Part shown: positions 34,196 to 63,675 of the stretch, piece after piece | Position numbering within the stretch: the first letter of the stretch is position 1 | Layout: each line of letters opens with the position of its first letter | NCBI RefSeq assembly: GCF_003668995.1 | Contig: NZ_CP033068.1 | Span: 4,774,001-4,838,000, forward strand | DNA length: 64,000 bases | Origin: Flavobacterium sp. 140616W15 | GTDB lineage: Bacteria; Bacteroidota; Bacteroidia; Flavobacteriales; Flavobacteriaceae | Reading direction: 5' to 3' | The notes under the pieces: model-generated | The model's input: only the letters and a program-made list of their open reading frames with translations | Database searches by the model: none | What the model was told of the DNA's origin: nothing | Made by a program: the position numbers and the translations under genes

Positions 34196-34621
34196 TTGGA
34201 TTTAGTTTTGAGAGTAAAGATAAAAAAATGGAATTTATTCTCACGTAGATTTTGCAGATTCGGCAGATTTAATTGTTGGCTGTAGGTGATACTGTGTAGA
34301 GATAGATTTGTTTTGTATGTGTTTTAATTATTGACAATCAATGAGTGTATAGGCGCACCGCAGAGCGTCTACGTAATCAGAATCTAATAATTTATTTTTG
34401 GGATTGTGTTGATTTGCCCGTAAAGATTTCATGTGGATTTTGTAGATTCGATTATTGGTTGTATTGATTTAACCGCAAAGTTCGCAAAGATTTACACGAA
34501 GGATATAAAATTTTTATGGTGTAATTTTTTGTTAATAATTATACTTATAGCTGATTTAAAACTTGTTTTAAAGCGATACTATATTTATATATTTGCCAGC
34601 TTATAAATAAAACCCCCAAAA
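34196..34621. other. repeat-rich intergenic region
   Basis: A 426-base gap filled with motifs typical of Flavobacterium intergenic repeats: CACGTAGATTTTGCAGATTC near 34242, a palindrome-like piece at 34347-34374, and CCGCAAAGTTCGCAAAGATT near 34472. I see no gene. The promoter of the following exported protein must be near its end, but no clear box was found. Confidence 0.55.
34347..34374. repeat. short palindromic intergenic repeat, copy 2
   Basis: TATAGGCGCACCGCAGAGCG then TCTAC resembles an imperfect hairpin and is similar to the piece at 24681-24704. Confidence 0.45.
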
Positions 34622-43138: not shown

Positions 43139-43229
43139 AAACACGAATCACACCAATCTTAATAGGTTGACTTTGTTAGAGGAATTAATTTTACAAATGA
43201 ATTAGTGTGAATTGGCGTCATTCGTGTTT
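43139..43229. repeat. gene-less inverted-repeat element related to the 59.5-60.0 kb cassette
   Basis: The left end AAACACGAATCACACCAAT (43139-43157) and the reverse complement of the right end (43211-43229, AAACACGAATGACGCCAAT) match at 17 of 19 bases. The AACACGAAT core is shared with the repeats around the GxxExxY gene. It fills much of the gap between rsmG and the phosphatase promoter. Confidence 0.65.
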
Positions 43230-58708: not shown

Positions 58709-59482
58709 TTAGTTTTCCTGTTTAAAGCAAAGCGGGATAATTTCTCCTTTGGCTAAACAATATTTTTCGACTAGCTCTGGAGCTATTTTATTGGTGTAAT
58801 CCTCTTCGATTACGATAAAGCCAATGCTTCTTAATTTATCAAAATAATCACGGCCATAAATACGTACATGATCATATTGTCCGAATATCTTAGCACGTTC
58901 TTTTTGGTCTGTAATAGTGTCATCTGCAAAAGTAACTGCTCTAGATAAATCTTGTGGGATTTGTAAAACTGCCATTCCTCCAGGTTTTAAAACACGAAAC
59001 AATTCCTGCATCGCTTTGGTGTCATCCGGAATGTGTTCTAAAACATGATTACATAAGATAACGTCATATTCATTATCCTTAAAAGGTAAATTGCATATAT
59101 CTGCTTTAACATCTGCTAAAGGTGAAAATAAGTCAGTTGTTGTGTAATCAAGATTTTTTTGCTTGCGAAATAGTTTGTAAAAAGCTTGTTCGGGAGCAAA
59201 GTGCAATACTTTTTTTGGTGCTGTAAAGAAATCAGTTTGATCGTTCAGGTATAGCCATAACAAACGGTGTCTTTCTAAAGATAGAGTACTTGGTGAAAGT
59301 ACATTGTTACGTTGTTTTCCGTATCCGTAAGGCAAAAAACTTTTAAAACTTCTCCCATCAATAGGATCAGTAAATTTATCTCCTTTTAATGAAAAGGCTA
59401 AAATAGGACGTGCCACATAACTCAAACGAATTAATAATGGACGTGGAATGGTATTAAGAACTAGTTTGAAAAGTTTCTTCAC
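58709..59482 (-). CDS. class I SAM-dependent methyltransferase
   Basis: From GTG 59482 (MKKLFKLVLNTIPRPLLIRL) a 257-residue protein. The methyltransferase core shows KKVLHFAPEQAFYKLFRK, TTDLFSPLADVKADICNLPF, VILCNHVLEHIPDDTKAMQELFRVLKPGG and GRDYFDKL, a Methyltransf_11-type domain; the first motif departs from the usual ExGxG. The upstream frame reaches 59521 but runs through the CACGAATT repeat, so that start is spurious. Substrate unknown; small molecule or sugar methylation fits the type. The promoter is separated from the coding region only by the inverted-repeat cassette. Confidence 0.85.
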   Translation of the reverse strand: MKKLFKLVLNTIPRPLLIRLSYVARPILAFSLKGDKFTDPIDGRSFKSFLPYGYGKQRNNVLSPSTLSLERHRLLWLYLNDQTDFFTAPKKVLHFAPEQAFYKLFRKQKNLDYTTTDLFSPLADVKADICNLPFKDNEYDVILCNHVLEHIPDDTKAMQELFRVLKPGGMAVLQIPQDLSRAVTFADDTITDQKERAKIFGQYDHVRIYGRDYFDKLRSIGFIVIEEDYTNKIAPELVEKYCLAKGEIIPLCFKQEN

Positions 59483-59497
59483 TGTTAAATAGATTTG

Positions 59498-59516
59498 AAC
59501 ACGAATTTCACGAATT
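59498..59516. repeat. left inverted repeat of the GxxExxY cassette
   Basis: AACACGAATTTCACGAATT, the exact reverse complement of 59978-59996. The CACGAATT unit is repeated twice inside and a third time just beyond (near 59519). Confidence 0.9.
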
Positions 59517-59563
59517 GGCACGAATTAATGTGATGGTGAAATTTCACGAACCTTTGATTGGGA

Positions 59564-59940
59564 TTAAAGTATTATTCTTTTATATTTAAGGCTATCTTCT
59601 CCAAAATTGACTAGTAATCCTAATTTATTTTGAGAAGCCGCTAGGTAATTTAATGTTTGTCTGATTTCACTCGTCGTTAGTGCTGTAATTGCTTTTAGCT
59701 CTAAAATAATTTCATTGAAAAAACAAAATCTGCAAAATAATAACTTGGCAGTATGATTTCCTTATAAGCGATATTATATTTTAATTCTCGATCATAAGGA
59801 ATTTGATTTTTTTGAAACTCATATTCTAAAGCATCACCATAAACTTTTTCACTGTGTCCTTTGCCTAAAATTTTATGGACTTCCATACAGATTCCTATTA
59901 TTTTATAAGACTCTTCTTTTAGATATAATTCATTCATCAT
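59564..59940 (-). pseudogene. GxxExxY protein gene, apparent frameshift
   Basis: From ATG 59940 (MMNELYLKEESYKIIG) the protein reads EVHKILGKGHSEKVYGDALE, the GxxExxY signature (GKGHSEKVY), then ELKYNIAYKEIILPSYYFADFV. The frame breaks in the six-base A run at 59718-59723 (six T on the coding strand). One more T gives VFFNEIILELKAITALTTSE, NYLAASQNKLGLLVNFG and a stop at 59564, about 125 residues, the usual family size. The D and ExK residues after the break fit a PD-(D/E)XK-like nuclease fold suggested for the family. Function unknown; members are often found in non-coding or intervening-sequence contexts. The gene is enclosed by the inverted repeats. Confidence 0.85.
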
Positions 59941-59977
59941 TATCAGTGAAATTTTTAACAAAAGCTTTATTCGTGAA

Positions 59978-59996
59978 AATTCGTGAAATTCGTGTT
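59978..59996. repeat. right inverted repeat of the GxxExxY cassette
   Basis: AATTCGTGAAATTCGTGTT, perfect inverse of 59498-59516. It overlaps the map stop codon (59995-59997) by two bases, and a third ATTCGTG unit lies at 59969-59975. Confidence 0.9.
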
Positions 59997-60813
59997 ATAA
60001 TATCAAAGGCACTTTTCTGAATTCATCTTCTTCGTTGCTCTCGATTCCTAGTGCTTTATAGATGTACTGGAAAGTGGATAAGATTTCTGGTTTACCATCG
60101 ATTAAAGCTACATCATGTTCAAAATGCGCACTTGGTTTACCGTCAGCTGTTGTAATTGTCCAGCCATCTTTATGTTGTTTTATGTTTCTTGTTCCCAGGT
60201 TAATCATTGGTTCAATAGCAACAACCATTCCTTCTACAAAAAGTTTTCCTCTTCCTTTTTTACCATAATTTGGCATTTCAGGATCTTCGTGCATTTTTTG
60301 CCCAAGTCCATGTCCAACAAGTTCACGAACAACTCCGTATCCATGTGCTTCGGTATATTTTTGTATTGCACTTCCAACATCTTCTACACGGTTTCCTGCT
60401 TTAAATTCACGGATTCCAACATATAAAGATTCTTTGGTAACTTGTAGTAATTTTTTAACTTCTGGAGCAACTTCTCCTATTTCAAAGCTATAGGCATGAT
60501 CTCCATGATAGCCGTTTTTGTATGCACCACAGTCTACCGAGATAACATCACCGCTTTTTAAAGGAGTGTTATTTGGAATACCGTGAACAACTTGTGAATT
60601 TGGACTCATACAAAGTGAGTTTGGGAAGTCATATAAACCTAAAAAGCTTGGAACTGCACCGTGATCACGAATGAATTCTTCGGCTAGTTTATCAAGATAT
60701 AATGTGGTAACTCCTTCTTTTATCTCAGAAGCAATCATTCCTAATGTTTTTGATACGATTAAGGCACTTTCGCGCATTAATTCTATTTCTTCACGTGATT
60801 TTACAATAATCAT
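59995..60813 (-). CDS. map: type I methionine aminopeptidase
   Basis: A 272-residue enzyme that removes the initiator methionine from new proteins. The pita-bread fold metal ligands are in VISVDCGAYKNGYHGDHA (two Asp), GHGLGQKMHEDPEMPNYG (His and Glu region), and the C-terminal FEHDVALID. The start is ATG 60813 (MIIVKSREEIELMRESALI). The reverse-strand TACTTTTG at 60834-60841 may be its -7 box. Its stop codon abuts the right inverted repeat of the GxxExxY cassette. Confidence 0.96.
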   Translation of the reverse strand: MIIVKSREEIELMRESALIVSKTLGMIASEIKEGVTTLYLDKLAEEFIRDHGAVPSFLGLYDFPNSLCMSPNSQVVHGIPNNTPLKSGDVISVDCGAYKNGYHGDHAYSFEIGEVAPEVKKLLQVTKESLYVGIREFKAGNRVEDVGSAIQKYTEAHGYGVVRELVGHGLGQKMHEDPEMPNYGKKGRGKLFVEGMVVAIEPMINLGTRNIKQHKDGWTITTADGKPSAHFEHDVALIDGKPEILSTFQYIYKALGIESNEEDEFRKVPLIL

Positions 60814-62311: not shown

Positions 62312-63145
62312 TTAATTTTGATAATGATGAGCTCGATATTGTATCGGGCTCATTCCTTTTAAATTCAGTTTGATTCTTTCATTATTGTAATATTTTATAT
62401 ATTCTATAATTTCCTTTTTTAGATGATTTATGTCTTTAAATTTCATAATATAAAATAGTTCTGATTTTAATATGCCAAAGAAATTTTCTATAACTGCATT
62501 GTCTAAGCAGTTTCCTTTTCTTGACATACTCTGCACTAATCCTTTCTCCTTCAAAAGCTGATGATATCGCTTCATTTGATACTGCCAGCCTTGATCGGAG
62601 TGTAATATTAAATTAGTATCATTTGATATTCTTCGAAAAGACTTTTTAAGCATATTGGTGATTTGATTAAAATTTGGTCTTTCAGATAAATCATAACTTA
62701 TTATTTCCCCATTGAAAAGATCAATTATAGGTGATAAGTACAATTTATTACCTGAGATATTAAACTCAGTTACATCGGTAGCCCATTTTTGATTGGGTTT
62801 ATCAGCCTTAAAATTGCGCTGCAATATATTAGGAGCTATCTTTCCTTGTTCTCCTTTATATGATCTGTACTTCTTGATTCTGATTAAACTTTTTAATCCT
62901 AAAATTTTCATCAATCGCAACACTGTCTTGTGATTAATTAAAATTCCTTTTTGCCTGATTAATAAAGTAATACGCCTGTAACCTAATCTACCCTTATGAT
63001 GATTGTAAATCTGTTTAATCAAATCTTTAACATCTTTGTATTTATCAATTACTTGACTTCTTTTTTCATAGTAATAATAAGTACTTCTAACCATGTTCGT
63101 ACAATTTAGCAAGAGGTCTAAATCATATTTATGCCTTAGTTCCAT
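62312..63145 (-). CDS. IS3-family transposase OrfB (DDE integrase)
   Basis: A 277-residue integrase-like transposase. The N-terminal helix-turn-helix region (GRLGYRRITLLIRQKGILIN) is followed by the rve domain: WATDVTEF with the first Asp, HSDQGWQY with the second Asp, and NCLDNAVIENFFGILKSELFY with the Glu, giving the DDE triad. It ends YYNNERIKLNLKGMSPIQYR, typical of IS3. Its ATG overlaps the orfA stop as TAATG on the minus strand. It catalyses strand transfer, either as OrfB or as an OrfAB fusion made by frameshifting; no clear A6G slip site was found, though AAAACAAAAGG precedes the stop. Confidence 0.93.
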   Translation of the reverse strand: MELRHKYDLDLLLNCTNMVRSTYYYYEKRSQVIDKYKDVKDLIKQIYNHHKGRLGYRRITLLIRQKGILINHKTVLRLMKILGLKSLIRIKKYRSYKGEQGKIAPNILQRNFKADKPNQKWATDVTEFNISGNKLYLSPIIDLFNGEIISYDLSERPNFNQITNMLKKSFRRISNDTNLILHSDQGWQYQMKRYHQLLKEKGLVQSMSRKGNCLDNAVIENFFGILKSELFYIMKFKDINHLKKEIIEYIKYYNNERIKLNLKGMSPIQYRAHHYQN

Positions 63146-63675
63146 TATGGTTTGAGCCTTTTGTTTTGATTGGCTTGTTCGGCTTGAACTAAGGCGTTGA
63201 ACTTTTTTAAAATTTCGTTCTCAGCTCGTAAATACTCCAGTTCCTTTAAAAGTTCTTCTTCCCTAGTTAAGGGTTTGTCTGTTTTTCTCTGTTTTCTCTT
63301 AAAATTCATAGATCTGGGTCTTCCTTTAGGTTTAGATGATAATCCCTCTAAACCAAAGTTAGCAAAATCTCTTTTCCATCTGATAATAATTGAGTCTGAG
63401 GGAATGTTAAATTTTAAACGAGCTTCCCTTAGTGATAATAAATCCTTATCTATTGATAGTAATACTTTTTGTTTAAAATCAATGGAATAGACACGATTCT
63501 TCCGTGGTAACAATCCGATTGTTCCATATGCTCTGTAAAAGCTAACCCATCTACGAATATTTGACTCACTAATACTCTTTTCATTAGATACCGCTTCACT
63601 GGAGTATCCTTTCTCGATAACTAACCTTACACATTCAAGTTTGAATGCGTAATCATACTTGACTTTTCTTTCCAT
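63145..63675 (-). CDS. IS3-family transposase OrfA (helix-turn-helix)
   Basis: A 176-residue DNA-binding protein of the IS3/IS150 type, with two helix-turn-helix regions (VRLVIEKGYSSEAVSNEKSI and ARLKFNIPSDSIIIRWKRDF) and a C-terminal leucine-zipper-like coiled coil (TREEELLKELEYLRAENEIL) used for dimerisation. The start is ATG 63675, about 45 bases inside the right end. It overlaps orfB by translation coupling. Confidence 0.92.
   Translation of the reverse strand: MERKVKYDYAFKLECVRLVIEKGYSSEAVSNEKSISESNIRRWVSFYRAYGTIGLLPRKNRVYSIDFKQKVLLSIDKDLLSLREARLKFNIPSDSIIIRWKRDFANFGLEGLSSKPKGRPRSMNFKRKQRKTDKPLTREEELLKELEYLRAENEILKKFNALVQAEQANQNKRLKP

Follow-up and report, generated by a model that had tools for sequence, protein, structure and literature searches.

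Iterated inverted arms around GxxExxY genes of Flavobacterium suggest a little-noticed kind of repeat-spreading system

Results

The GxxExxY unit between map and a methyltransferase gene

The DNA analysed was a stretch of 64,000 nucleotides from Flavobacterium sp. 140616W15 (contig NZ_CP033068.1, positions 4,774,001–4,838,000), referred to below as the window, in which a gene of the GxxExxY family lies between inverted repeats in the interval separating map from a methyltransferase gene. AACACGAATTTCACGAATT occupies positions 59498–59516 and its exact reverse complement 59978–59996, giving a perfect 19-bp inverted repeat. Each arm contains three tandem CACGAATT-type units of approximately 9 bp; the left arm, of which the first 19 bp form the perfect repeat, spans 59498–59529 on the forward strand, and the right arm, inverse to it, spans 59966–59996 on the reverse strand. 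An inverted-repeat search returned both arms as one 52-nt inverted repeat (59493–59544 and 59950–60001) that was 77% complementary. The perfect repeats with three units per side described in the original prediction, which was made from the DNA letters alone, were confirmed.

The upstream neighbour is map (methionine aminopeptidase; 59995–60813, reverse strand, from the open reading frame (ORF) list and relatives). Its stop codon is overlapped by the right repeat around 59995–59996, in agreement with the predicted contact between the two. At the other end of the unit, the listed ORF of the downstream methyltransferase begins within the left arm. Alignment with relatives makes the GTG at 59482 the more likely start, so that this gene would span 58709–59482 on the reverse strand, with roughly 15 bp separating it from the left arm.

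The single gene predicted inside the unit was matched by the family model TIGR04256 / PF13366 (PDDEXK_3) on the reverse strand, with outer limits of 59564 and 59940 taken from the sequence, but its frame is broken near the middle. The model matched two overlapping pieces with internal stops, both above the curated family cut-off, and the listed open frame is only 86 amino acids. Intact GxxExxY copies are present at the same map/methyltransferase site in relatives. The window contains a decayed copy of a GxxExxY gene with intact arms.

Inverted arms around other GxxExxY genes

The genome contains five GxxExxY genes, the four other paralogues also scoring above the curated PF13366 / TIGR04256 cut-off. 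Inverted arms were found at four of the five, with a different sequence at each: CACGAATT in the window, CACAGATT at L061, GCGGAT at L064 and ATTAAG at L063, where a direct repeat outscores the inverted one (25 vs 18). A CGCAGATT palindrome adjoins the fifth gene, L062.

Arms were then scored in larger sets. Inverted arms scored above the 99th percentile of a control of 2989 random intervals, a small number of which hold very strong pairs (maximum 400, in L105), at 50 of 61 genes, compared with 16 of 61 for the direct orientation; this set comprised 60 of the 65 matches of at least 100 bits (four of G003 and G019:C113 were omitted) and the broken gene of the window. A phylum-wide set of 40 hand-picked loci, one per genome, gave 24 inverted and 11 direct, the family being present in at least 50 of 99 genomes. 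When Bacteroidota GxxExxY genes were compared with their neighbouring ORFs at an arm score of at least 14.5, inverted arms were found at 73 of 96 genes (5 of 101 loci were dropped) and at 26 of 1033 neighbours, the arms differing by clade. Within the clade of the window's gene, represented by 80 of 106 loci, 74 loci were above the arm threshold and 74 had two CACNRATT units in an arm. The sets overlap in that L161, L176, L190 and L215 are the same loci as L100, L110, L071 and L094, and L136 and L148, both tandem double loci, entered the phylum-wide set as one block.

The arms are typically iterated. Tandem units were present in 137 of 150 loci with arms compared with 544 of 3000 shuffles, and the period of the upstream arm was most often 9 bp (87 arms; 8 bp in 11 and 10 bp in 19), a distribution that the window's clade dominates. 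Two C-R-C-N-N-A-K units were found in 113 of the 150 loci, and in 40 of the 76 outside this clade.

On seven plasmid records and one viral contig, arms were clear in Gemmatirosa (Gemmatimonadota), Sphingomonas (Pseudomonadota), Bernardetia, Bacteroides and the viral contig; in Gemmatirosa the direct and inverted scores are alike because a full palindrome lies on each side. A contig labelled Candidatus Scalindua carries CACGAATT arms, a label that is not safe. Four further contigs labelled Rhizobium, Candidatus Nitrotoga or Bifidobacterium (L205, L209, L212, L219) have the map/GxxExxY/methyltransferase site of Flavobacterium type, and these labels are therefore probably wrong. Two GxxExxY genes were found close together at G121:C4:68683-69764, G059:C1:1593381-1594196 and G005:C24:134333-136200.

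Arm sequence follows protein clade

Over 55 loci, arm similarity was correlated with protein identity (Spearman 0.35, the maximum of 2000 permutations being 0.13), the broken gene of the window being omitted from protein comparisons. Among pairs without synteny detectable by nucleotide BLAST, which may miss it between distant genomes, similar arms were found in 8 of 24 at 70–80% protein identity, 14 of 127 at 60–70%, 18 of 566 at 50–60%, 10 of 1202 at 40–50% and 11 of 2478 at 30–40%; these pairs share loci and are not independent, and L136 and L148 were dropped. Because the trend persists in non-syntenic pairs, shared location does not explain the match between arm and protein, and gene and repeat co-vary as in the coevolution described for RAYT genes (REP-associated tyrosine transposases) and their repetitive extragenic palindromic (REP) sequences. 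Seven of the 80 window-clade loci adjoin neither map nor the methyltransferase gene, and six of these were above threshold with a CACNRATT unit, L234 lying just below it. At a second site, with neighbours named by inspection as sigma-54 regulator-like and miaB-like, orthologues have different arms: GCCACAGATT in L061 and L068, and GCCACGAATT in L288, L289 and L279, the L288 protein being 64–68% identical to those of L061 and L068.

Dispersed copies of the repeat

The predicted recurrence of the 19-mer was borne out by a search of the 4.94-Mb genome, which gave 26 occurrences with up to two mismatches and none for the reversed control. These counts, together with the survey of 96 genes and 1033 neighbouring ORFs, rule out a chance inverted repeat. 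Seven convergent pairs without a gene form elements of 83–102 bp, and six of the seven, folded as single-stranded DNA, gave z values of -4.7 to -9.8 relative to shuffles. Four of the 26 sites lie inside an ORF of at least 100 amino acids, one of which (L006) is the over-long methyltransferase frame. The gene-less pairs are thus inverted, hairpin-forming, extragenic doublets. A repeat scan of the window located another element of the unit's type, 85 bp long and lacking a gene, at 43142–43226, its arms CACGAATCACACCAAT and CACGAATGACGCCAAT being inverted relative to one another.

Repeat abundance was compared with the presence of the cognate gene. Extra copies of 53 arms, summed, numbered 28 in 3.98 Mb of loci of their own genomes and 84 in 52.2 Mb of loci of other genomes, 16 of the arms having an extra copy of their own. 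The CACGAATT 19-mer gave 410 matches in total (reversed control 7), the median per genome being 10 where the clade gene is present (11 genomes) and 2 where it is absent (50 genomes; p = 0.0004, from counts transcribed by hand). CGCGGAT occurred 9, 64, 16 and 8 times in four genomes with the gene and 22 times in total in the other 15, and CGCAAATT occurred 47 and 14 times in two genomes with the gene and 48 times in total in the other 17. These counts take in the gene unit's own arms. Abundance of the repeat alongside its gene was seen in three of four families tested, while the fourth, ATATAAG (ACCATATAAG), runs in the opposite direction. In G005:C10:46202-46836 the CGCAAATT arms recur at a 192-bp step, resembling the tandem array of a bacterial interspersed mosaic element.

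Gain, loss and inheritance of the unit

Both map and the methyltransferase gene adjoin the unit in 73 of 80 window-clade relatives; in one, L231, the methyltransferase gene lies 4.4 kb away. Filled and empty map/methyltransferase sites, which the original prediction had proposed to compare, both exist. Among 29 readable genomes of the genus the interval contains a unit of the window's clade in nine, one of a different clade, with arms of CACAAAG type, in seven, deleted remnants of the latter in two and another hairpin or gene in two, and it is empty in nine, the states being assigned by hand. In five of the nine empty sites map and the methyltransferase gene overlap by alignment, the map stop lying over the start of the next gene. 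In L242 (G151) the interval is occupied by a different hairpin, of CCTGCAAGGTTTT / AAAACCTTGCAGG type, and in G156 an apparent leftover arm of the other clade lies beside the unit.

The hand-assigned states were placed on a tree built from both flanking genes for 28 genomes, G166 being omitted as map was not found and G012 not being counted. The site changes state at least 12 times on this tree, and the presence of the window's clade alone requires six changes, of which well-supported branches force five. Even so, the states cluster, since none of 200 shuffles gave as few changes. Gene distances track those of the flanks over 72 loci (r = 0.82, compared with 0.87 between flanks); of 69 splits, only 19 are common to the tree of this short gene and that of its flanks, and in some pairs the genes are far closer than their flanks (L163/L164, 0% vs 4–6%). 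Because the gene diverges largely in step with its flanks and the neighbours are kept in 73 of 80 relatives, comparison of these sequences indicates mostly vertical inheritance of the gene unit, interrupted by repeated gains or losses. What is scattered is the set of short copies that lack the gene. The same two observations disfavour a freely hopping cassette, a point on which the original prediction, partly supported overall, was less accurate.

The short elements vary too. One intergenic site was aligned across 28 loci, and in 7 of these it has a CGCAAAG element of 55–57 bp, which in several lies between ATATAAG-type arms; its junction is not clean because sites without the element hold other hairpins. 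A TGTCATTTCGACTGAAAGGAGAAATCAC palindromic family was observed at that same site in L170, L177 and L179. Unpaired CGCAAAG-type tandem units lie in the window at 34474–34500, resembling the arms of other GxxExxY clades.

Predicted fold and genomic context of the protein

The nuclease-like fold anticipated for the family was supported by a predicted model and by fold matches, which gave the alpha/beta core and E-D-ExK residues of the PD-(D/E)XK superfamily. The residues are highly conserved (E22 in 78/78, D62 in 77/78, E72 in 78/78 and K74 in 78/78). By its predicted fold the GxxExxY family is a compact PD-(D/E)XK nuclease, shorter than known members (124 amino acids for L161 of Flavobacterium chungbukense) and with no PDB relative by sequence, the PDB sequence search having given a single chance match at an E-value of 0.55. 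The nearest solved fold was 4ic1 (SSO0001), which we take to be a Cas4. Eight proteins scanned matched PF13366 and not PF01797 (Y1/HUH), the RAYT domain. A stop or frameshift was present in 8 of 80 window-clade copies.

A role as a defence system was rejected, PADLOC giving only weak similarity to Cas4, as was phage or plasmid cargo, one query protein having matched 0 of 50,697 phage records and 8 of 72,556 plasmid records. Among the viral contigs scanned, one GxxExxY locus was found. An 883-amino-acid open frame containing the domain, an apparent fusion, was observed at G055:C9:91044-91385, G083:C1:72354-72692 and G067:C22:338277-338615.

Elsewhere in the window, two adjacent ORFs at 62312–63675 resemble, by reading of the frames, an IS3-type transposase pair, and Rfam at the gathering threshold found two tRNAs in the window and nothing else. 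The Y1_Tnp gene of this genome (L293) has TTGGCTTTAGCCAA-type palindromes downstream, which differ from GxxExxY arms.

Discussion

The features named for RAYT genes by Nunvar et al. (2010; PMC2817692) include inverted flanking repeats, gene-repeat coevolution and abundance of the cognate repeat, and REPINs are the inverted, hairpin-forming doublets described by Bertels and Rainey (2011; PMC3116915). Set against what these two papers describe, the GxxExxY units are alike in having a lone small nuclease gene between two inverted repeats, in the cognate hairpin-forming doublets scattered through the genome, and in the co-variation of gene and repeat, with paralogues that have different repeats. 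Inverted flanking repeats were found in a strong majority of genes in all four surveys (50/61, 24/40, 74/80 and 73/96), and the gene-less pairs correspond to REPINs. The enzymes are different, GxxExxY being a predicted PD-(D/E)XK nuclease and RAYT a Y1 HUH transposase, as are the repeats, since a GxxExxY arm consists of tandem units of about 9 bp whereas a REP has a GT(A/G)G head followed by a palindrome; the window arms instead read AACACGAATT. Repeat counts, approximately ten to a hundred per genome at two mismatches, are a further difference. Because inverted flanking repeats and coevolution hold for most genes and cognate abundance in three of four families tested, while the enzyme is unrelated, the system appears to work like REP/RAYT without being a RAYT. 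The comparison with REP elements in the original prediction is upheld in so far as the repeat is dispersed, arms occur at most GxxExxY genes and follow the protein clade, and empty sites exist. A search of the open-access literature, with subscription journals and preprints outside its scope, found no function for GxxExxY, nothing on repeats in the accessible text of papers naming the family, and nothing relevant on PDDEXK_3, on dispersed repeats in Flavobacterium and others or on REPINs in flavobacteria.

Two other kinds of element share part of this design. Miniature inverted-repeat transposable elements (MITEs) of DDE insertion sequences are short non-autonomous elements with terminal inverted repeats (see also PMC2817692). 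The gene-less elements resemble them in all three respects, but no target-site duplication was resolved and the gene found between matching arms encodes a PD-(D/E)XK nuclease rather than a DDE transposase. Homing endonucleases of PD-(D/E)XK type are small nuclease genes at a recurrent insertion site. GxxExxY is likewise a small nuclease gene at a recurrent site, but it lies between two genes, with no intron or intein as far as was seen, and has dispersed gene-less copies.

We consider it probable that GxxExxY proteins supply the enzyme for a repeat system of two components, one that operates in the manner of REP/RAYT although its enzyme is of another kind. Every such protein would recognise a short unit specific to it, which is repeated two to four times at steps of about 9 bp in an inverted pair of arms. 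The protein may bind these units and cut at the palindromic element, perhaps as a hairpin extruded during replication, after which repair or copying would place the element elsewhere or fill an empty site. The gene itself would stay mostly at one place and be inherited vertically, the short elements being its non-autonomous, dispersing products. That the protein mobilises the repeats is inferred.

Several observations weigh against such a system. No inverted pair above threshold was found at L062, at 23 of the 96 Bacteroidota genes, or, relative to control, at three of the eight plasmid and viral loci (Treponema, Fusobacteria and Prevotella), and direct repeats also exceeded the threshold at 16 of 61 and 11 of 40 genes. 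G161 has 46 CACGAATT matches without the clade gene, most among the matches listed being the related GCCACGAATT form. The ATATAAG family is abundant in genomes without an intact cognate gene (116 copies in G008, 66 in G004 and 29 each in G005 and G006), the counts with an intact gene being 85, then 9 (G012), 5 (G003) and 4 (G017). The correlation of gene and flank distances speaks against frequent movement of the unit, and no target-site duplication was resolved between filled and empty map/methyltransferase sites or at the CGCAAAG site.

Other explanations account for parts of these data. The nuclease could act by homing, cutting sites that lack the unit so that repair copies it in from a donor, with the dispersed palindromes as cut sites or by-products. 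Such a process would fit a site that may hold this clade's unit, hold that of another clade or be empty, its repeated changes of state, the leftover arm beside the G156 unit, the few splits common to the gene and flank trees, and pairs such as L163/L164; we nonetheless regard it as unlikely, since gene distances follow the flanks overall and homing leaves unexplained why pairs that bear the same arms but no gene are scattered over unrelated loci. The protein might instead process or maintain the repeats, binding or trimming palindromes (for example at replication) and being kept for that purpose while something else spreads them. A mostly fixed site, conserved catalytic residues and the near absence of matches to one query protein from phage and plasmid records are consistent with this role, which is however quite unlikely given that the gene itself lies between arms, that fixed-site orthologues have different arms (L061/L068 vs L288/L289/L279) and that 8 of 80 clade copies carry a stop or frameshift.

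A mobilising enzyme of another kind, either a RAYT or an insertion-sequence transposase, is disfavoured and very improbable. One RAYT-like Y1_Tnp gene, L293, is present in this genome, but it has no inverted arms above threshold (score 10), and chance capture of GxxExxY between two palindromes would produce neither the excess of arms over neighbouring ORFs nor clade-specific arms. Also disfavoured, and the most improbable of the explanations considered, is that the arms serve the gene as transcription terminators or regulatory sites and are not mobile DNA: hairpin-forming ends do lie near the gene, but the gene-less copies are scattered, their presence differs between relatives, and tandem clade-specific units are not a terminator design.

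Taken with their scattered repeats, the GxxExxY genes suggest a little-noticed kind of repeat-spreading system. We lean slightly towards the broader view that they constitute a second, independent class of such systems beside REP/RAYT, in which restriction-fold nucleases with their own iterated-unit palindromes would have given rise to many short dispersed repeats that are so far unexplained in Bacteroidota, and would occur in at least two more phyla. The pairing with clade-specific dispersed repeats gives a direct hypothesis both for the GxxExxY family and for how one class of short repeats arose. If it is true, the REP/RAYT design would have evolved twice with unrelated enzymes. Each paralogue with arms names its own predicted target sequence, so that binding and cutting are directly testable.
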